Positions 1-10,117 of a stretch of DNA of 24,911 nt are shown in pieces. Under the pieces are notes generated by a model. It was given only the letters and a program-made list of their open reading frames with translations. It made no database searches and was not told where the DNA came from. The stretch covers positions 1 through 24,911 of the IMG/VR virus record IMGVR_UViG_3300034694_000060; one strand, given 5' to 3'. Made by a program: the position numbers and the translations under genes. Origin of the DNA: a virus. Position 1 is the stretch's first letter. Each line of letters begins with the position of its first letter.

Positions 1-576
1 AAGAGCATCTCTTTTCGACTTATCTATAACACCTTGTAATTGAGCTGTTCTTAGTTCTTCTTGCGACATACCTTCAACATCAGCTACACTGAAACCTGAA
101 GCAGCTAAAGACTCAGCTACACTATCTTGTAATGTAAACAAATCTTGTTGCGCTTTAAACTCAGCTTCCTCTTTTTGTTTTTGTTTAGCAGTAATTTCAT
201 CTGAGAAAGTGCTAAGTGTTTCACCTGTAATTTTCTTTACGCCACCTACTATTTCAAATTGCATTTCAGGAGAGTATTTTTCTAAGTAAGACTTCTCCCT
301 TACGAGAAGGTCAGATCGACTAACACCTTGATTAACCAAATCTTGCCTTAGCTCTCTTAGTCCTAGAACACCTTGAGAAAGCTTCTTATTCTGTTCAGCC
401 TCCCTCTGAGTTAAATCTTGAAGTTCAGTTTTTGCTTGTTGTTGTTGATAGAACTGTAAACCTGTACCTACAGCATTAACAATATCCCCGCCTAGAGAAT
501 TACTAGGAGCTGCAAACTGAGGTGTTTGAGAAGCTGTCTTTTGTGCCTGTTTAATTTCTCTTGTAAAATCTACCAC
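1..576 (-). CDS. Internal virion (ejection) protein, gp15-like by position; C-terminus cut by window edge
   Basis: The reading frame is open for 192 codons from a GTG start to the left edge, so only the N-terminal part is seen. The GTG shares its G with the TAG stop of the upstream 1807-residue gene. A strong Shine-Dalgarno (GGAGGGG, 582-588) sits 5 bases before it, and no ATG occurs early enough to be a better start. The protein is rich in Gln, Glu and Lys and is predicted to be mostly helical (for example, QFYQQQQ followed by a long charged stretch). No signal peptide, membrane segment or enzyme motif is visible. Its place after a gp14-like gene and a giant ejection protein suggests it is another component of the internal core or ejectosome. 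The homology to T7 gp15 is inferred from position only. Confidence 0.75.
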   Translation of the reverse strand, partial: MVDFTREIKQAQKTASQTPQFAAPSNSLGGDIVNAVGTGLQFYQQQQAKTELQDLTQREAEQNKKLSQGVLGLRELRQDLVNQGVSRSDLLVREKSYLEKYSPEMQFEIVGGVKKITGETLSTFSDEITAKQKQKEEAEFKAQQDLFTLQDSVAESLAASGFSVADVEGMSQEELRTAQLQGVIDKSKRDAL

Positions 577-3500
577 TATTTCCCCTCCATAATTTCATAA
601 CCTTCTCGAATATGTTTAATCTCTTCTTTCATATCACCTTCAGTAGCTTTTTGCTCTAACAGTTTTAGGTACTTTGTTTTATTATTTTCTGCTGCTGCAT
701 CTAAATAAGGTTTCATGTATACGTCATATCCTTCAGACCCAAATTTTAAACCTCTGTTTATAAAAGCTCTTTCTATATCTTTCTCGTACTTCGGATCATT
801 CATTTCTTTAGTTACTTTAAGCCATTTATCTCTAATTTCATTTTGCTTAATTAAACCAAGCTCAGGATCGCCCTCTCCCGTTACCATGTTGTATATGGCA
901 TTTGATGTAGTTTCCGCTATAGCTTCCCTAGCGTAAGCTTGTAAATTAGCATCTGTTATAGACTTAGCTTTACTGTCTTTAAAAGACAAAGAAAATCCAC
1001 TATTAAATATATTACGATGATAATAATCAGCATGCATTTCAGGTTGAATCCCTAAATTTAAAAGTATAGATTCTGTTTGTGTTATAGGGAGCTGACCAGA
1101 CAAAGAGCGAGCTGAAGCATTTCTTCCTGTCCAGTACGAAATATAAGATTTCATAGCTGTGTTTAGAATTTTAAAATTTTCCATAGCTTCTAAAAATGTC
1201 GCAGAAAGAGCATCCGTCCACTCAATTTCTTCTGTTGCCACCGATTCGTATATTATAGCCCCAGAAGATACTACGCTCTCAAGCACACCTCCTACAGAAA
1301 AAGCTGATGCCCCTACCATGTTTACTTTAGGGAAGTCTTCAAATACAAGGCTAGTAACCATGTCTACAAAAGCAGAGGGACTCATTGTAGCATTTACATC
1401 TACAGAACTATCTTCAATCATTGCATTTATAGATGCATTCATCCCCCCATCTAAAAAAGCATCAAGTACAGCAGGTATTTCTTCAGGTTCATATTGGCTG
1501 CGTATCATGTCTTCAAAAGAACTGCCCATAGATTTACCTAAACCACCTTCTAAACCAAACGCCCCATAAGTAATCAAAGTAGTTAGAAAAGCTTTATTCC
1601 AAGTTTCCGCAAACTTTCCTTTGTTTTTACCCATTTGACCTAAATACTTATCTGTTACAGGACTCATTACTTTGTTAATAGGGGCACGTATAACTTCCCA
1701 TTGCGGCTCAATAACAACATCTAAGAAAAATTTATGCACAGCTTGCATGAATTGCCCTGCTAAAGCTACAGGACTGCCTTGCTCTTGATATGCGAATCTA
1801 TCTAAACTTGTTTGTGACTGAGTACGCTTTTGTGCTTGAAAGGATATATCTGCTTTTCCTTTAGCATCAAAAGCCCTTCCTGCTGCTCGGAGTTCATTAA
1901 ATTCTATTAGATAAGATAAAGCATTGTTTAATACGATTGAACTTTCTTGTATTCCAAGTGATAACGAACGTGGCCCTTTGTAAATTTTAGAACCATATTT
2001 TTTTGCTGTTCCAATTCCCGTTGTAGCAACCGTTGCTCCCTCTTTTCTTGCCAAATCTAAAAAGTCATTACTCCTTCCGATTGCATCTATTAATCCATTA
2101 GTTCTCATTGAGTCAACTAATTCTTTAGCTAAAGACTCACTTCCTAAAAGTTTAGCTAAAGGAGCAAAATTATCTGTTTTAAATGCATAAAGTATTGCAG
2201 GTAATTGAACAACAGCTCCTGCATGTGTTGACCACCCTTTTCTAGGAGCTACCGCTGTAGTTATATTATATAATGCAGGTGCTAAATTCTGTAATCCTTG
2301 ATACAGTCCGTTCCAAACAATATATAACTCGGAAGTTAAAGCTTGTATTTTAATAGCAGCAGATTTTGTACTAGGATTAGATAAAACAGGAGCTAAAATA
2401 GGTGTTAAGATTTTGTCTATACTTTTATAAAAATCGCCTACATTATTCTGTTGTAAAGACTTTAAATAAGCATGATGATTAATAAGTTCTGTTCTCATAT
2501 CAGGGTTTTTAATTAAAGCTTCCATACCCTCTTTAGATACCATTTCTTGCCAAGATGAAAGAAACTTTGTATTTGCACCTTTTTTTAAATACTCAGAAAA
2601 ACCTTTAGTAAATTTAACAAGTAAAGATTGATAAGCATTGTAGTCTAAAGCCGAACCTACACTGCCAATACTTTTAAACAAAGACTCAAAAACATTTAAT
2701 GTATCCGCTGCCCCAACACCATCAGAACCCTTAACTTTTTCTCCCCTTTGTTTTAAATGACTAGCTCCGTATCCAAATTGGACACTTTCACTATCCCCAT
2801 ATATATCACTTTCTAATTGCTGTGTTTCTCTACTAGACTTATATGAAGGGCCAGTTTCCGTAACTGTTTTGCTAGAAGTCCCATCCGCCTTAGAAACCAC
2901 TTTTGTAGTTGTTATAGCTTTTACACCTTCCATAAGTTTTTTAGCTTGGGCTTCAGTTTTAACTATATGAGTAGGTCTCATAATAATCTTTATTACACCA
3001 TCAATTTCTTTTTTAAAAGGAGACAGAACCACCCAACCAGCATCCCTATACATTCTGTCAATGTGTCCTTTGCGTCTGTTTAGTGTTCTATTAGGGGTAA
3101 GTTTTTTTATTTGCTCTGGAGTGACTCTCGCATGGGTATAGGATTTACCATTAAATTCTTTTTCTTTACCTAGTTTTACTACAATAGAATCTGGGGCTAG
3201 GTCTTCTTTATTAACAACTTTTCCGAGAATTGTGTCGTATACAACATCCACTTCAATGTCTTTTATTTGAATAGCTTTTCCTATTCCTAAATCACCATTA
3301 TCTTTAAAGTCAATATATTTTTGATTACCTGCTCTTAACTTGTTGTAGTAGTTTCTTTCTCGTATAACGTAAATGTCTTCATATATAGAACGAATGTCAG
3401 TATAAGATTTCCAAACATTATCAGGAGTCTTAATACCCATATCTTTATTAAGTTTTTGTATAGAGTTCCATGCTTTCCCTTTATTATCCCCATTTTCTAA

Positions 3501-5999
3501 TATTTCCATTAACAGTTTATTTTCTAAACTACTCAAATCTTTAACTGCATTCTTAGCTTTATCTTCCATTTTTTGAAGTGTACTGCGATTTACGTTTTTC
3601 ATTGCAGCAAGACCCCGAAGTAAATCTTCCTCTAGATTGCGGTATCTATTTAATGCCCAAGAAATAGCATTTGAAGGTGTCTTCCCTTTTATTTCTAAAC
3701 CTGCAACATCTGAATAAGGATTAGAATAATGATCTATTTCCACCTCTACAAAAAACCCATTTTCTTTTTGCACGACTTTAAAATCATAACCTACGGCAGC
3801 ACTTTCTATAGCATCTTCCGCTCCCGCTCTTGTAGTAAAACCTCCTTTAGCTCCATCTGTAAGAAGAAAAGTAAACGTTCCATAACTACCTTCTATATCA
3901 TTAGCTACAAAACCTGTAGACGAGTAATCAGGAGTTAACGATGTCCCCATAGGTTTTTCTAATTCTCTGCCTAGTCCTTGCCCTATACTATGTTTATTTG
4001 CGTCTACAAAAATAAGGTCACTAAGCATCTTTTCTTCACTGATATTAGTAAAGCCTTGTTCTGTTTCAGCATTAGGTGTAGGTATAAGTCTTTCTGCTAC
4101 AGCCTCCGCATCTAAACCCGTCTCTTCTACTAGCCCCTTAAAACCTTTTTCAGCTCGTAACGTTTCGTATACAGAAGGTGAAAACCTGTAAAGAGTATCA
4201 AACAAACCTGAATCAGGACGTAAGCCAGTAGGATTAATTGTAGGACTCTGTATGCTTGTTACTGAGAACTCCCCAGTAGGGGTAAGTACATCTGAGACAG
4301 TCATACGACCATCATCTATTAAAGTTTTTGTACGAGATAAATCACTTTCAGCTTTTGCTGCTTTATCAAAGTCTGTAATAAGTACTTGATTAGTACCTTG
4401 TCTTTTTTTCACGACATCTCTAGCTGCAAGATTTTCCTCTCTTACTTCTTTTAAGGCTTCCTTGAACTTTATTTTCTTCTCTCTAGATACTTGTCTTGCC
4501 TTCTTGTTTAAATCCTCTGATTCCAACTTTCCTAGAGATTTAGATAGGTCTTTCTTTTCAGTCTCTAAGGCTTTCCTCTCTTTACGAGAACCTTTAGCTG
4601 ATGCTGCCTTTTTTAAAGCATCCCTGCTGTCAGTAGTACCTTCAACAATTTCAACTTTAGGAGTTGTTCCTTCCATTCGATATTGAGCGTTATCAGGGTT
4701 TAATCTATTAACAGTCTCCGAACGAATAACAGCTTCCATTAATTCTTCTTGTTCTGTAAATGCTTCAGCTAAATGTTTACGAGAGTGCATACGTCTCATT
4801 AACCACTTGCCCATATTACCTAGACTTTTCGCAAGGACTACCGCCTCCCCAATAAACAACGTTCCATTAAAAGCTGTTTCTAACATAGCTGTTACTTCAG
4901 CTTCTGTAGCACCCTCTGCTTTTAATCTTGCTCCTTGCAAAACAGCATTGTACATCGTATCAATTTGTCCTCCAGCAATTAAAGAGTTGTTGTTATTAAA
5001 AAGGTATGTTTCTTGATTTTTAGCCCCCTCCACCATACTTTCAATAAGAGCCATTTGTTTTTCAAAAGGTAAATCTTCAAGCCTGTCTAGATTGTTATAT
5101 ACGTCTGAAGTATATTTTAACCCCTCTTCAGAAGCAGCTCCTACTAAAACAAACATTTCTAAAAAATCTCCAGCCATTTTTAGAGGAGTAATAGTATTAG
5201 CAAACTCATTCTGCATTTTAGAAATATCGTTAGCCATTAAATTGTTTTTAACAGACTCCCTCAAGATAGGATGAAGGCTTTCTATATCTCCTCCCTCTCT
5301 TCCTCCTACTCCTTTTGTAACATTTTGTACGTAGGCTGCTCTTTGTTCAGCAAGAGTAGGTTTCCTTTGTAACTGCCTTTCTAAATCTTGTAAAAGAAGA
5401 GCAATTTCTTTAGGCTCATTTGCTTCTTGTATATTCTTCTCATAAAGAGAAAACATATCTGTATAAAATTCTTCACCAAAAGCATTTGAAGCTTGGCTAA
5501 CCATACTATAGTCGCCATTCTTAATTTGATCCTGAATTACTTCTACAGGCTCACCTGTCTTAGCACTTGCCATAACAGCTTGTTCTTTAGAGGAGTGCTT
5601 TGCTAACATAGGCTGAAATGGTATTTCTTCTACGTCATCAAATGCAAAAGCTTCTAGCTCTTCTTCTTCGGACTCAAAGGCAAAAACGTCTTCACTAGGA
5701 AAAACATTACTTCCTCCACGTACAGCATTCTCTTCACCTTCCTTCATTTCAAGATCTTCAAAGGCAGTCTCTAGTGATTTTACAGCTTCAGGATTAAAAC
5801 GGCTTAAGGTGCTATTCCCTGCTTCTGTAGTAGGTTTATCTGAAACAAGTTCTGTTTCTAATGCTCCAGCTTTTCTAATATCATCTAGAGTATAACCCTT
5901 AGATTTCAAATCTTGAGCTAAGGATATTGCTTTAGCTTGGTTATCTTTAGCTTCAGGATGAGACTCAATCGCGCCTTCTTTTGTTTCTACTTTTCTCAT
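576..5999 (-). CDS. Giant internal virion / DNA ejection protein (1807 aa)
   Basis: This is the largest gene in the window, with an ATG start and an AGGTG ribosome site 7 bases upstream. The N-terminal 130 residues are very acidic (repeated EEEE, DDVEE). Residues about 455-540 are a Lys/Glu-rich predicted coiled coil. Around 1200-1270 and again near 1480-1560 there are long, alanine-rich, mildly hydrophobic helical stretches. The C-terminal 200 residues are charged and helical. This architecture and its position after a gp14-like gene fit the T7 gp16/gp15 class: proteins of the internal core that leave the capsid at infection and form a conduit through the cell envelope. T7 gp16 is about 1300 residues, so this one is longer. 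I see no lytic transglycosylase motif at its N-terminus, unlike T7 gp16, and no polymerase motifs. Function is inferred from context and composition. Confidence 0.7.
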   Translation of the reverse strand: MRKVETKEGAIESHPEAKDNQAKAISLAQDLKSKGYTLDDIRKAGALETELVSDKPTTEAGNSTLSRFNPEAVKSLETAFEDLEMKEGEENAVRGGSNVFPSEDVFAFESEEEELEAFAFDDVEEIPFQPMLAKHSSKEQAVMASAKTGEPVEVIQDQIKNGDYSMVSQASNAFGEEFYTDMFSLYEKNIQEANEPKEIALLLQDLERQLQRKPTLAEQRAAYVQNVTKGVGGREGGDIESLHPILRESVKNNLMANDISKMQNEFANTITPLKMAGDFLEMFVLVGAASEEGLKYTSDVYNNLDRLEDLPFEKQMALIESMVEGAKNQETYLFNNNNSLIAGGQIDTMYNAVLQGARLKAEGATEAEVTAMLETAFNGTLFIGEAVVLAKSLGNMGKWLMRRMHSRKHLAEAFTEQEELMEAVIRSETVNRLNPDNAQYRMEGTTPKVEIVEGTTDSRDALKKAASAKGSRKERKALETEKKDLSKSLGKLESEDLNKKARQVSREKKIKFKEALKEVREENLAARDVVKKRQGTNQVLITDFDKAAKAESDLSRTKTLIDDGRMTVSDVLTPTGEFSVTSIQSPTINPTGLRPDSGLFDTLYRFSPSVYETLRAEKGFKGLVEETGLDAEAVAERLIPTPNAETEQGFTNISEEKMLSDLIFVDANKHSIGQGLGRELEKPMGTSLTPDYSSTGFVANDIEGSYGTFTFLLTDGAKGGFTTRAGAEDAIESAAVGYDFKVVQKENGFFVEVEIDHYSNPYSDVAGLEIKGKTPSNAISWALNRYRNLEEDLLRGLAAMKNVNRSTLQKMEDKAKNAVKDLSSLENKLLMEILENGDNKGKAWNSIQKLNKDMGIKTPDNVWKSYTDIRSIYEDIYVIRERNYYNKLRAGNQKYIDFKDNGDLGIGKAIQIKDIEVDVVYDTILGKVVNKEDLAPDSIVVKLGKEKEFNGKSYTHARVTPEQIKKLTPNRTLNRRKGHIDRMYRDAGWVVLSPFKKEIDGVIKIIMRPTHIVKTEAQAKKLMEGVKAITTTKVVSKADGTSSKTVTETGPSYKSSRETQQLESDIYGDSESVQFGYGASHLKQRGEKVKGSDGVGAADTLNVFESLFKSIGSVGSALDYNAYQSLLVKFTKGFSEYLKKGANTKFLSSWQEMVSKEGMEALIKNPDMRTELINHHAYLKSLQQNNVGDFYKSIDKILTPILAPVLSNPSTKSAAIKIQALTSELYIVWNGLYQGLQNLAPALYNITTAVAPRKGWSTHAGAVVQLPAILYAFKTDNFAPLAKLLGSESLAKELVDSMRTNGLIDAIGRSNDFLDLARKEGATVATTGIGTAKKYGSKIYKGPRSLSLGIQESSIVLNNALSYLIEFNELRAAGRAFDAKGKADISFQAQKRTQSQTSLDRFAYQEQGSPVALAGQFMQAVHKFFLDVVIEPQWEVIRAPINKVMSPVTDKYLGQMGKNKGKFAETWNKAFLTTLITYGAFGLEGGLGKSMGSSFEDMIRSQYEPEEIPAVLDAFLDGGMNASINAMIEDSSVDVNATMSPSAFVDMVTSLVFEDFPKVNMVGASAFSVGGVLESVVSSGAIIYESVATEEIEWTDALSATFLEAMENFKILNTAMKSYISYWTGRNASARSLSGQLPITQTESILLNLGIQPEMHADYYHRNIFNSGFSLSFKDSKAKSITDANLQAYAREAIAETTSNAIYNMVTGEGDPELGLIKQNEIRDKWLKVTKEMNDPKYEKDIERAFINRGLKFGSEGYDVYMKPYLDAAAENNKTKYLKLLEQKATEGDMKEEIKHIREGYEIMEGK
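582..588 (-). promoter_or_regulatory. Ribosome binding site that sets a GTG start
   Basis: On the minus strand GGAGGGG lies inside the last codons of the 1807-residue gene, 5 bases before the GTG at 576. It is the strongest Shine-Dalgarno match near this junction and decides the start of the left-edge gene. Confidence 0.75.
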
Positions 6000-6008
6000 T
6001 TATTACAC

Positions 6009-6482
6009 CTACTGAGGGTTTAAATCTATTACAGGAGCGCCACCATCAGCCCTTGGAGTCGTGCTATTTGGCGACATACTTGAAGCCATCATTGCTAAGT
6101 TAGCTACAGAATTAAACGTAGAAGCTTGCCCTGCATATTGATTAGATTTAGCCATATTCCGTGCAATACGTGTTTGAAAGAAATCCATTTGATTTGAGAA
6201 CTGCATATTCCCTGCTGTAAGAGAACCTACGGCACTATACCCACCTTGAGCTGCACTACTCTGTAATGTCCCTCCCGTAGCTGCTCCTTGAACTATCTGT
6301 GCTTGAGCTATACGCTGTTGACGTACTGCTGCCATTTGCTCTCTAGCTTGCTGCGCTCTCCTTACACCCTCTTGGTTACGAGCCGCTTTCTTCTGTTGTT
6401 TACGGGACTTCTCCCCCGAAACAATACTCCCTGCTGTCGCAGTACCTGCTATTACTAAAGCTGTTGTTATAGGGTCAAGCAT
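6009..6482 (-). CDS. Internal virion protein, gp14-like (157 aa)
   Basis: The ATG at 6482 lies 16 bases inside the upstream gene, with AAGGAG as ribosome site. The N-terminus has a short hydrophobic, glycine/alanine-rich helix (about residues 4-22). A basic, Gln/Arg-rich amphipathic helix follows (about 25-65), then a Gly/Ser/Ala/Asn-rich half with AGNMQF and several Met-Ala pairs. This pattern is typical of the T7 gp14 family (internal virion protein B), which forms the outer-membrane part of the ejection conduit. T7 gp14 is 196 residues, so the size is comparable. It lies between the gp13-like gene and the giant ejection protein, the same position as in T7. The family assignment rests on pattern and context, not on a database match. 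Confidence 0.72.
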   Translation of the reverse strand: MLDPITTALVIAGTATAGSIVSGEKSRKQQKKAARNQEGVRRAQQAREQMAAVRQQRIAQAQIVQGAATGGTLQSSAAQGGYSAVGSLTAGNMQFSNQMDFFQTRIARNMAKSNQYAGQASTFNSVANLAMMASSMSPNSTTPRADGGAPVIDLNPQ

Positions 6483-6787
6483 AATAGTTCTCCTTTAAAT
6501 TGACCATTACTTGTGTACATTTCATCTATTACATCCATACCAAATAAACTACCAAACTTAGTAAGTTTTTTATTGTTACTAAAAGCATAAAGTTCATTTC
6601 GAGGGGCTTGGTCAATTAGGATGTAAAAAACATTAAGCATCTCTCTATACACAGAAAGCTTCCATTTTTCAACAAGACAATGCACTACCCACCCCATTGA
6701 GCTATCCTCAATGTATACAGAAAAATTAGAATCTTTGTATAGACAAGGGTGTTGTATAGAATCTTTTTCTAAAATATCTACAATCAC
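6467..6787 (-). CDS. gp13-like protein with GNAT-like C-terminus (106 aa)
   Basis: The start is GTG, overlapping the TGA stop of the nozzle C-terminal gene as GTGA, with GAGAGG upstream. The C-terminal stretch (residues 77-97, including KFGSLFGMDV and SNGQF) resembles the end of T7 gp13 and of acetyltransferase-like phage proteins, where a G-A/M-x-F turn is followed by a DGQF-like strand. T7 gp13 (138 residues) is needed for virion morphogenesis and sits between gp12 and gp14, exactly the position here. Whether this protein has acyl-transfer activity cannot be told from sequence: no clear acetyl-CoA loop is seen. The assignment is by synteny plus a short motif. Confidence 0.6.
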   Translation of the reverse strand: MIVDILEKDSIQHPCLYKDSNFSVYIEDSSMGWVVHCLVEKWKLSVYREMLNVFYILIDQAPRNELYAFSNNKKLTKFGSLFGMDVIDEMYTSNGQFKGELLCLTL

Positions 6788-8001
6788 ATTCTACCTCTCA
6801 TGGTATAACCTACTGAGTACCCTAAGAGTTGCATATCTTTTTCTGGCTCTGCTTGGAATACAAATTGAACAGCATCCCCATTACCACGAATATTAAACTT
6901 CTTAGAGATAAGACTTTCACCTGTATCAAATGTATAGGGGTAGACATCTGGTATAAAGCCTCTTTGCATTGGCTTGTATAACTGCATTGCTTTACCTCTA
7001 CCTTCACCATTCAAGATACCTGTGTACTTCCCGTATGCGGCACTCTTATCGAAATCCCAACGAGCTTGAAACAAACAAGCACTAGGATAATCAAATACAT
7101 AACTATCTGCTTCATATCCTGTTATTGTTGTTTCTGTCTTTCTGAAAAATACTTTAGCTTGTGACACAGCTTTCTTATTAGAAAACTTACCAAGTGTTTC
7201 ATAACCAGTGACAAGATAAGCTTCTTGGTCTGTACCAAAATCTTTAAATACACGATTAACTCTAGAAGAGAATGAGTACGTGACATTAGTATCAGTTTGA
7301 AGAGAACTGGGATAATACAAAGCATTAGCTATGGTAAATGGCATACGGAGTTTGTAGGAGGCACTAGATTGCTTTTGAGGATAGAATGCACCTACAGTTG
7401 TATCTAGAACTAAACCTGCACCTTGTGTCTGAGGAAGCCACCATTCACATTGTTTAGTACCTGAGTTATATACGCCTTGTGCGCCTTCTCCTGCAAGAGT
7501 AGATAAGTAATAAGAACGTATGGATGTTTCTGTAATATCTGTAGCATCTGCTGTATTAAATTGATTCACAGCAATTTGCATAATAGCGTTATTAGAAAAG
7601 TAATAGATATTATTATCTGCTACTACAATACTTTTAGCACTATCTATACCCCTGTCGGTAATCTTTTCTACATTAAAAGATGTAGCTTTAAATCCTCCAT
7701 CAGGGTTGTAGATATACCACACACCATTACCAGCAAAGATAAGAACACCTGAACTATAAGATTGCATAGCCTTAATACGTTGAGTATCTTCTAGCTCTAT
7801 TACACCTCCATCTGTATCTAGTAAGTCTGGGAACTCACTGCTAGTAGGGTCATTTTGTTGATAACACCTACCTACATCACTGTCAGTTTCTACTACTTGA
7901 GTGAAGTACACCATACTATCTACAGCGTAAAAGAATCTCCCAAATGCACTAGCACAGGAAGTAGGGTTCTTAAAGTTCTTCTTAGGGCTATCTACCGCCA
8001 T
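6784..8001 (-). CDS. Tail nozzle (tail tubular protein B-like), C-terminal polypeptide (405 aa)
   Basis: The start is ATG with an AGAGGA ribosome site 5 bases upstream. The protein opens with KNFKNPTSCASAFGRFFYAV and soon has VYFTQVVETDSDVGRCYQQN and LLDTDGGVIEL. These are hallmarks of the central and C-terminal part of T7 gp12-like nozzle proteins (contain-the-virion-site, cysteine-bearing segment and beta-propeller with GVWYIYN and GGFKATSF). A complete nozzle protein is about 750-900 residues; this one begins in the middle. The missing N-terminal half is the adjacent gene at 8029-9030, in the same frame but separated by four stop codons. It should sit at the distal end of the tail tube and act as the gate that opens on host contact. 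Confidence 0.85.
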   Translation of the reverse strand: MAVDSPKKNFKNPTSCASAFGRFFYAVDSMVYFTQVVETDSDVGRCYQQNDPTSSEFPDLLDTDGGVIELEDTQRIKAMQSYSSGVLIFAGNGVWYIYNPDGGFKATSFNVEKITDRGIDSAKSIVVADNNIYYFSNNAIMQIAVNQFNTADATDITETSIRSYYLSTLAGEGAQGVYNSGTKQCEWWLPQTQGAGLVLDTTVGAFYPQKQSSASYKLRMPFTIANALYYPSSLQTDTNVTYSFSSRVNRVFKDFGTDQEAYLVTGYETLGKFSNKKAVSQAKVFFRKTETTITGYEADSYVFDYPSACLFQARWDFDKSAAYGKYTGILNGEGRGKAMQLYKPMQRGFIPDVYPYTFDTGESLISKKFNIRGNGDAVQFVFQAEPEKDMQLLGYSVGYTMRGRM

Positions 8002-8028
8002 AATATCCTCTTATCTCTTTTAATTTCA

Positions 8029-9030
8029 TTATGGTATATCTAAAAATTCATCACTATAAGGTGGCTTGTAAGGAGGAATACCACCACCACCAGAAGGAGT
8101 ATTAGTGTCTTCAGGGTCTATAACATCAGGCTCATCTGGATTATATGTAGGAGTTCCTGAAAAGTTTATAGTCCCTATAGGAACTAATGTTGTACTTGGC
8201 GCACCATCTTCTTCAGGGTTAAGCAATTTAGCATCTCTGTTAAAATCATTAATGTCATAAACATAATGACCTCGCCCTGCTTTACTGTTTCCGAAGTTAG
8301 CCCCTTTAACATCTTTGGATGAGAAGACTGTATCCCCACCTTCATCTATAATAATTCCTACAGAAGCTACTTGTGCATTACTAGGATAAACTCCTGTAAA
8401 ATTTTTAAAGGCAGTTGTTACAAGTTTTTCTACTTTATTACCTTCTAAATCTGCTCTTGTAAGATGCCAATCAGCATTAAATAAATTGTACTTATGGTTG
8501 TCTGAAAGATTAATAGGTTGCTCGGATATTTCTAATCCATCATCTACTAATTCAAAGTCACGTACATTTACCTTAACACTACTAACAAAAATTTCTTTTG
8601 TAAGTTCTTTGTACTCACACATAACAGGGTTAGTACCTTGGTCTGTAGTGATAATGAGGAAGTTAGTTGTTTCAGCTATTTGTGTTTTTACTACAGCCGA
8701 AGAAATGACAACCTCTGCTATAAATGTAAAGTCATCATCTACCGCATGAAAACGAAGTTTGGTTTGTGGTGTGTCGTCTGTAACTGTAACACATACTAAA
8801 GATGGGCCTCTCCAATAGAATACATTCTCTACAGCAGCAAACCCTCCAGTAATAACAAAAGGAGTTACTAAATCTTGAAACCCTAAACGTCTTTTACGAA
8901 TTAATCCATCTTTATTAATTACAAAATTTAATTCATCTGATGTGAAACTTTCAGGAAAAGCAAGAGCTGAAGTCTCGGTATTCAAACCTTTGATTAAAGA
9001 AAGATAATCTTTTTGTCCTGAAGCCCTCAT
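8029..9030 (-). CDS. Tail nozzle (tail tubular protein B-like), N-terminal polypeptide (333 aa)
   Basis: The ATG has AAGGA 7 bases upstream. The N-terminus has SLIKGLNTETSALAFPESFT and ELNFVINKDGLIRKRRLGF, a typical opening of T7 gp12-like nozzle proteins (bait-like 'SLIKGLNTE' and 'RKRRLG'). The body is beta-rich. The end is a low-complexity acidic and Pro/Gly-rich linker (NPDEPDVIDPED, then SGGGG and PPYKPPY) that would be internal in a one-piece nozzle protein. It stops with TAA, followed in frame by TGA, TAA and TAA before the ATG of the second half. The two polypeptides sum to 738 residues, close to T7 gp12 (794). They are therefore inferred to assemble together into the nozzle. Confidence 0.85.
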   Translation of the reverse strand: MRASGQKDYLSLIKGLNTETSALAFPESFTSDELNFVINKDGLIRKRRLGFQDLVTPFVITGGFAAVENVFYWRGPSLVCVTVTDDTPQTKLRFHAVDDDFTFIAEVVISSAVVKTQIAETTNFLIITTDQGTNPVMCEYKELTKEIFVSSVKVNVRDFELVDDGLEISEQPINLSDNHKYNLFNADWHLTRADLEGNKVEKLVTTAFKNFTGVYPSNAQVASVGIIIDEGGDTVFSSKDVKGANFGNSKAGRGHYVYDINDFNRDAKLLNPEEDGAPSTTLVPIGTINFSGTPTYNPDEPDVIDPEDTNTPSGGGGIPPYKPPYSDEFLDIP

Positions 9031-9334: not shown

Positions 9335-10117
9335 TTAGCCATGACCTCTAGGTACGTAACTTCCACTTAGACCTTTCCTTCCATAAGAAGCTTTACTACG
9401 GCCTTGTCCTAATGTACGGTTGTCTTGTTGAAGTTTTATTTTCTTAACTCTTGCTCTTTGAGCAATCATTCCGATAGGTTGTTGATGAACTAAAGTAAGA
9501 GCTTCATTAAGAAACATATCTAAGTAAGTTTCAGATAAATGATTTGGGATAGGTATTTCAAAAACATCTTCTTGTAAAAAGACTTTCTCTTGAGAGCCTA
9601 CAAATCTGGTCTTACTTGCTTGAAGGGTAGTATCGAATTCGTTATTATAAGAATCGAATACAACATGAACATTATCAAAAGAAGTAAAATAAGAAGGAAA
9701 TTGGTTAGTTTTAATAGACATTCTATTATCATTGTAACCTTTTACTATTATAGAGTTTGTAGTATTTGAATGCAACGTATGCTCTACAAAATCAAGTGGA
9801 GGTAAGTACGTTATTAATTGGTAATCAAGTTCACCTGTTTTCTTTGATACGTTGTACCAAATTTTACTTTCTTGTATTTTCTGTACCTTTTTAGGTAGCA
9901 GCATAGAATTAGGACGAGCTATATCTGATAAGGATTCTAAAGCTAAATCATCCATAGTAAATAAAACATTGTCGTATTCTTGCACCATTTGGTAGTACAC
10001 ACGTTCTGCTATTTTAGCTACTTGTTGAGACTCATCCGTATCAAATATACTGTCTACATAAAAACCACTTGTTGCATCAAGGTACTCTTGAACAACCATT
10101 AACAATGTTCTTCTCAT
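9335..10117 (-). CDS. Tail tubular protein A-like adaptor (260 aa)
   Basis: The ATG has a GGAG ribosome site 8 bases upstream, downstream of the hairpin that follows the capsid gene. The N-terminus is helical (VVQEYLDATSGFYVDSI and QQVAKIAERVYYQMVQ), followed by a beta-rich middle and a basic, glycine-rich tail ending YVPRGHG. T7 gp11 (196 residues) and its relatives begin with the same sort of helix pair that docks on the portal ring, and form the 12-fold adaptor between portal and nozzle. The present protein is longer because of an extended middle and tail. Its order (capsid, adaptor, small protein, nozzle) supports the assignment. The match is by architecture and synteny. Confidence 0.72.
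   Translation of the reverse strand: MRRTLLMVVQEYLDATSGFYVDSIFDTDESQQVAKIAERVYYQMVQEYDNVLFTMDDLALESLSDIARPNSMLLPKKVQKIQESKIWYNVSKKTGELDYQLITYLPPLDFVEHTLHSNTTNSIIVKGYNDNRMSIKTNQFPSYFTSFDNVHVVFDSYNNEFDTTLQASKTRFVGSQEKVFLQEDVFEIPIPNHLSETYLDMFLNEALTLVHQQPIGMIAQRARVKKIKLQQDNRTLGQGRSKASYGRKGLSGSYVPRGHG

Follow-up and report, generated by a model that had tools for sequence, protein, structure and literature searches.

Gene content of the nozzle locus

The window, i.e. the whole 24,911-nt stretch of marine phage DNA analysed here (IMG/VR record IMGVR_UViG_3300034694_000060), carries on its minus strand two neighbouring genes of 333 aa (8029..9030) and 405 aa (6784..8001), which share one reading frame and are 27 bases apart. 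In a profile search both products matched phrog_8094 'tail appendage' (769 aa) in consecutive parts, the 333-aa chain at positions 5-288 (E 6e-23) and the 405-aa chain from position 349 (E 5e-79). At the sequence level, the tail tubular protein B of cyanophage A4 matched both halves in order (E 7e-16). T7 gp12 alone gave no direct sequence signal against the family profile, and a Pfam search with either half returned nothing above the cut-off. Searches of the PDB by single sequence yielded chance matches only, and a DNA-level search of a phage collection found no match. The window pair is tied to T7 gp12 by its fold, described below, and by the cyanophage A4 nozzle sequence: one nozzle protein with the T7 gp12/P22 gp10 fold is divided between the genes at 8029-9030 (N-terminal part) and 6784-8001 (C-terminal part). 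The claim of an earlier note that the pair equals one T7 gp12-like protein is thus borne out for nozzle family and fold, but not as a direct sequence match to T7 gp12.

The N chain is predicted to comprise the N-terminal platform strands, the first propeller blades and the nozzle-tip domain, followed by a Pro/Gly/Asp-rich tail, and the C chain the remaining propeller blades, the fibre-dock region and the C-terminal platform. The N-chain tail (residues 291-333; 8032..8160, minus strand) is Gly-rich, predicted by pLDDT to be disordered and, by dN/dS, weakly constrained, and could have a binding partner. Within the tail, a GGGG(I/L/V)PPY-type motif is present in the window's subclade and absent elsewhere. 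The tail ends in Ile-Pro (8032..8037, minus strand), a dipeptide that was compared with the Leu-Pro of fused relatives.

The junction between the genes (8002..8031, minus strand) consists of the TAA stop codon of the N gene and a 27-nt spacer with in-frame TGA, TAA and TAA; up to the start codon of the C gene it reads TAA TGA AAT TAA AAG AGA TAA GAG GAT ATT ATG. The coordinates of both genes, their common frame, the 27 bases between them and the four in-frame stops (8029-8031, 8026-8028, 8020-8022 and 8011-8013), all reported previously, were confirmed in the sequence. The AGAGGA ribosome-binding site of the C gene is also present (8006..8011, minus strand), at a distance of 4 nt from the ATG (7999-8001) rather than the 5 given before.

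Upstream lies the gene for the tail adaptor, or tubular tail A (9335..10117, minus strand; phrog_7592 tail protein, E 2e-57). As this gene usually accompanies that of the nozzle, the pair in the window has the expected neighbour. The same order of adaptor and nozzle is found in the phages RIO-1 and HP1 and in oyster-associated phages. The gene order downstream of the pair is that of Zobellviridae phages, and a 1807-aa protein (576-5999) occupies the place of the relatives' internal virion protein. A 106-aa gene (6467-6787) shares 4 nt with the end of the C gene; searches of PHROG and Pfam found no family match for it, and its position is taken in relatives by a GNAT acetyltransferase or a small gene of no known function.

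Predicted fold and position of the cut

A joint model of the two chains was obtained with AlphaFold as a monomer, using a read-through chain in which the stops were read as Gly and an alignment of 60 sequences. The read-through chain ties the halves together artificially, and a monomer model leaves the hexamer aside. The model reached a pLDDT of 87.1 and a pTM of 0.83, with pLDDT about 90 across residues 11-290. Disorder (pLDDT below 50) was confined to residues 311-344, and the terminal Ile-Pro was placed without confidence. The model has the platform and beta-propeller fold. Nozzle or muzzle proteins of podoviruses accounted for all of its best 30 structural matches (Z 19.7-24.8); they covered it from start to end and included T7 gp12 (7ey9, Z 23.4; 7boy, 22.8) and P22 gp10 (8eap, 21.1). 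WD40 and other propellers matched the model over residues 47-592, i.e. across the cut. The C half modelled alone gave a mean pLDDT of 76.7 and a pTM of 0.66, and nozzle proteins again headed the list of matches; it aligned to T7 gp12 from residue 334-336 (to 791), to SU10 over 584-1005 and to P22 gp10 over 131-472. The cut position corresponds to T7 gp12 residue ~300-336.

In T7 gp12, three platform strands come from the N-terminal 45 residues, the propeller is closed by its own first strand, and both chain ends contribute to the platform barrel as well as to blade 1. The T7 propeller has a second opening, where the chain departs to the tip domain (PMC6702177). The alignments of the C half, combined with this chain topology, place the cut where the chain comes back from the tip domain, or immediately behind that point. 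According to the model, the cut would thus coincide with the natural second opening of the propeller after the tip domain, so that one beta-propeller is bisected and both chains are needed to build it. The earlier note had proposed a break in a linker between two folded halves; the disordered linker is indeed there, whereas the picture of two independently folded halves does not agree with a cut predicted to run through one propeller. In the split form the platform and blade 1 would be composites of two chains, which we infer to be the reason why the pair holds together.

The end of the N chain was compared among the relatives described in the next section. It is Pro in 30 of 49 split loci, as against 8/240 among other ORF ends, and in 27 of the 30 the residue before it is I, L or V. 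Of 40 fused relatives, 31 have a hydrophobic-Pro dipeptide, mostly Leu-Pro, close to the AGRV(F/W)Y motif, and in 30 of those 31 it stands exactly 14 residues before the motif. The Ile-Pro of the window apparently corresponds to this conserved Leu-Pro, and from these counts the cut seems to lie directly after it. Because the sequences are related, and because a subgroup of split loci with a short N chain lacks the terminal hydrophobic-Pro, this end is a pattern rather than proof of a docking function.

Relatives of the split gene and their junctions

A search of IMG/VR with the C half returned 33 close relatives, every one of them (33/33) split here with start codons in place. Wider sampling by profile searches and from phage records led to a first set of 76 non-redundant loci, 50 of which are split at the same place, while 26 are fused or broken elsewhere; the set used for the junction analysis contains 49 non-redundant loci, including the window, that share the split at its point. 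The break has the same profile limits (about 280-325) in the window, RIO-1, HP1 and Vibrio phage 1.208.B. On a C-half tree of 72 rows the state changes once, on a branch with support 100/99 and in 200/200 bootstrap trees, compared with a mean of 20.9 changes when the labels were shuffled on the same tree. The N-half tree has the same single change (SH-aLRT 97), so that the RIO-1-type split shows common descent on both trees. A tree of 120 rows again gave one change for the window-type split, with lower branch support (78). The case of intact relatives with the window as a lone mutant, which the earlier note had named as damaging to its proposal, was checked: the closest relatives are all split, and by the C-half, N-half and 120-row trees the window is not a lone mutant. 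The collections searched yielded no near relative of the window with a single open frame.

Both halves are under purifying selection, as judged from dN/dS values of 0.08-0.16 for residues 1-280 of the N chain and 0.08-0.14 for the C chain. For N-chain residues 281-333 the values were 0.30-0.74.

In the 49 split loci, the second start lies at -1 relative to the first stop (TAATG) in 20 and at -4 (ATGA) in four. Another 20 have it at 0 to 17 nt, often as TAGGAG with the stop inside the ribosome site; it lies at 27 nt in the three loci of the window's own subclade and beyond whole genes in two. A site resembling a Shine-Dalgarno (SD) sequence is present within 17 nt in 36 of the 49. The stop-start distances of most loci suggest that translation of the two halves is coupled, and the proposal that the split sets the stoichiometry or order of tail-tip assembly is not favoured, with the second gene starting between -4 and +17 nt from the stop in 44/49 loci. 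The frame offset between the genes is 2 in 37 loci, 0 in 10 and 1 in two; the in-frame stops, on which weight had been put before, are a derived detail of the window's own subclade. Even the two subgroups nearest to the window, with the same 27-nt spacer, have three stops rather than four. The window junction retains the remnant CCATAATG, which resembles the TAATG overlap of stop and start seen in most relatives (L010, L016-L019 and others were compared); behind CCATAATG come about 28 additional bases that include a new ribosome site. Given this TAATG-like remnant and the later bases with their own site, the common frame and the four stops of the window can be read as a side effect. What did hold of the earlier proposal is that the polypeptides are started separately, owing neither to a sequencing error nor to readthrough, as the split is kept in relatives while the frames vary.

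The RNA structure at the junction was not unusual (z 0.05). Promoter-like sites near the junction were fewer than in shuffled sequences, and a terminator scan found none between the halves. A search of Rfam gave no match to the window, nor to loci in which insertions separate the parts, so the insertions are not explained by a known intron.

Probable origin of the proposed two-chain nozzle and its known counterparts

The homology of both halves, the position of the cut, its conservation across the clade, the single change on the tree, the purifying selection and the separate starts are established, and we consider it very probable that an ancestral single-chain nozzle gene was split once, long ago, and that the window carries the resulting two-chain state, in which the chains rebuild one nozzle. 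The trees are most likely explained by one ancient fission on a single well-supported branch; its direction is taken not from a rooted tree but from the fact that all solved nozzles are single chains. With the cut at the second opening, just after the conserved Leu-Pro, no core element would be lost. The N chain would provide the platform's first strands, the propeller's first blades and the tip domain; the C chain would complete platform and propeller and add the fibre-dock region. The two-chain platform barrel and blade 1 could then hold the pair without a covalent bond. The two chains would be made by coupled synthesis at about 1:1, and six pairs would form a 6+6 nozzle below the 12-fold adaptor ring.

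If the C chain by itself made up the nozzle core, with the N chain acting independently as a tip or adaptor protein, one would understand why the tip domain resides in the N chain, why genes may intervene between the halves in RIO-1, HP1 and KZY1, and why the C half alone still folds recognisably (pTM 0.66). However, the N chain also holds platform strands and first blades that the fold requires, and the C half, with a mean pLDDT of about 90 as part of the joint model, reaches 77 by itself (the alignments differed between the two). The N and C trees show the same single change, the halves lie side by side in sampled split loci, and the stop-start distances suggest coupling, which leaves such a division of labour unlikely. 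The opposite direction of change, with two genes ancestral and the single gene arising by fusion, fits the one change on an unrooted tree (the C-half tree is unrooted) just as well. It is very unlikely nonetheless, because the solved nozzles of T7, P22, SU10, crAss001, Pam1, VP1 and others are single chains with the same order of parts, and fusion would require a second, much older split or repeated fusions.

A full-length product made by programmed readthrough or frameshifting might be expected from the aligned frames of the window and from the single in-frame stop in L075, L093, L105 and L117, yet the frame relation is not conserved among the 49 loci, the window has four stops, and whole genes separate the halves in RIO-1, HP1 and KZY1. 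With a second gene that has its own start and ribosome site, and a junction of ordinary RNA structure with no Rfam match, we regard this as highly improbable. Least probable of all, to the point of being nearly negligible, is the reading of the window's split as a pseudogene in decay or as an error of sequencing in an otherwise intact gene. One such case does occur in the set (L163, compared with L162), but all 33 nearest relatives are split, dN/dS is about 0.1 in both halves and the split loci fall on one side of a branch. In L163 an in-frame TAA (4847-4849) lies in the same linker as the split of the window's clade, whereas L162, 99.95% identical over the compared stretch, is intact; this TAA is a lone mutant or an assembly error. 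In L086 (1-3096) the N-half gene is in two pieces, one on the opposite strand, an arrangement that is an inversion or a misassembly at a contig end.

Other breaks of the nozzle gene were found in the otherwise fused clade, at profile positions about 65, about 178, 585 and 640-655. In the model they map to loops or to the edges of domains, and start signals are present at the ones inspected; on the 120-row tree, all breaks together amount to six changes. The break at about 65 occurs in L164 and L172, where the first about 65 nozzle residues form a separate ORF (L164 3998-4215; L172 3989-7221). In L172 the N-terminal stretch is duplicated, the second copy being fused to a 250-aa region of no known family. 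The break at about 178 occurs in L141 (Vibrio 1.253.O) and L186, which stand apart on the tree, and that at 585/589 in L138/L227. L138 (3959-6349) has a TAG stop with a new ATG soon after, and its tree position is apart from the window's clade. At 640-655, L047 and L140 (Vibrio 1.015.O and 1.139.A) have 0.75-2.6 kb of genes between the parts: the last 95 nozzle residues are encoded after one inserted gene (L047 2733-7941; L140 6007-10969), of 250 aa in 1.015.O and 867 aa in 1.139.A, without a PHROG match. Neither the 313-aa ORF of L172 nor the inserted genes reached the Pfam cut-off.

Genes also intervene between the halves in RIO-1 (L036 6963-8914), HP1 (L037 4963-5505) and KZY1. The insertions of RIO-1 and HP1 have phrog_8270 in common, the intervening gene of HP1 sharing it with RIO-1_43. 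HP1 ORF 17, described as a structural protein and host-range candidate that is also found in a siphovirus genus (PMC5498523), is probably this HP1 gene. We give an even chance to the wider reading that the nozzle has undergone six or more cuts, which fall at five places (profile about 65, 178, 280-325, 585 and 640-655), all of them loops or domain edges. On that reading the oldest cut founded a large clade with a conserved hydrophobic-Pro C-terminus, and the gaps of RIO-1, HP1, KZY1 and Vibrio 1.139/1.015 host inserted genes, at least one of which is probably a virion protein (HP1 ORF 17). If this is true, the nozzle offers a natural series of split propellers, and new tail genes dock at its cut sites.

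Short-tailed phages have the nozzle as their DNA gate, and descriptions normally give it one chain. A two-chain nozzle throughout a large marine clade, cut inside the propeller, would show which bond this machine can spare and gives a laboratory handle, since the halves can be expressed apart and tagged. It is also a warning for annotation: many records call one half hypothetical and the other a head-closure protein or a tail appendage.

The split nozzle as such is already annotated in RIO-1, and the window is another member. The literature searched, to which the RIO-1 papers (J Virol 2013; Virology 2016) did not belong, contained no description of split nozzle genes; the extent of the split, its age and single origin, the junction pattern and at least five further independent breaks appear to be undescribed there. 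The gp44 and gp40 of Pseudoalteromonas phage RIO-1 (KC751414/NC_021300; Zobellviridae, Melvirus) and the gp18 and gp16 of phage HP1 belong to the same family and have the same break as the window, their halves being about 35-41% identical to those of the window. Three genes lie between the halves in RIO-1 and one in HP1, whereas the window has just 27 bases. In the RIO-1 record, gp44 and gp40 are described as the N- and C-terminal portions of PA11 gp38, and also as T7-like tubular tail B. Vibrio phages 1.208.B and 275E43-1 and oyster-associated Zobellviridae contigs (PQ867847, PQ867848, PQ867849, PQ867850 and PQ867853) also have the same break, with the genes mostly adjacent; their spacing is unlike that of the window, and PQ867853 has a gene between the halves. 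Their records name a hypothetical protein and a head-closure protein, or two tail appendages, and never halves of one protein. PA11 gp38, SIO1 gp27, ICP2 gp9 and CW02 gp43 (tail appendage or tubular tail B) resemble the window pair in profile and gene neighbourhood but, unlike it, are single uninterrupted chains. T7 gp12 and P22 gp10, likewise single chains, share with the window pair its predicted platform and propeller fold (Z 20-23).
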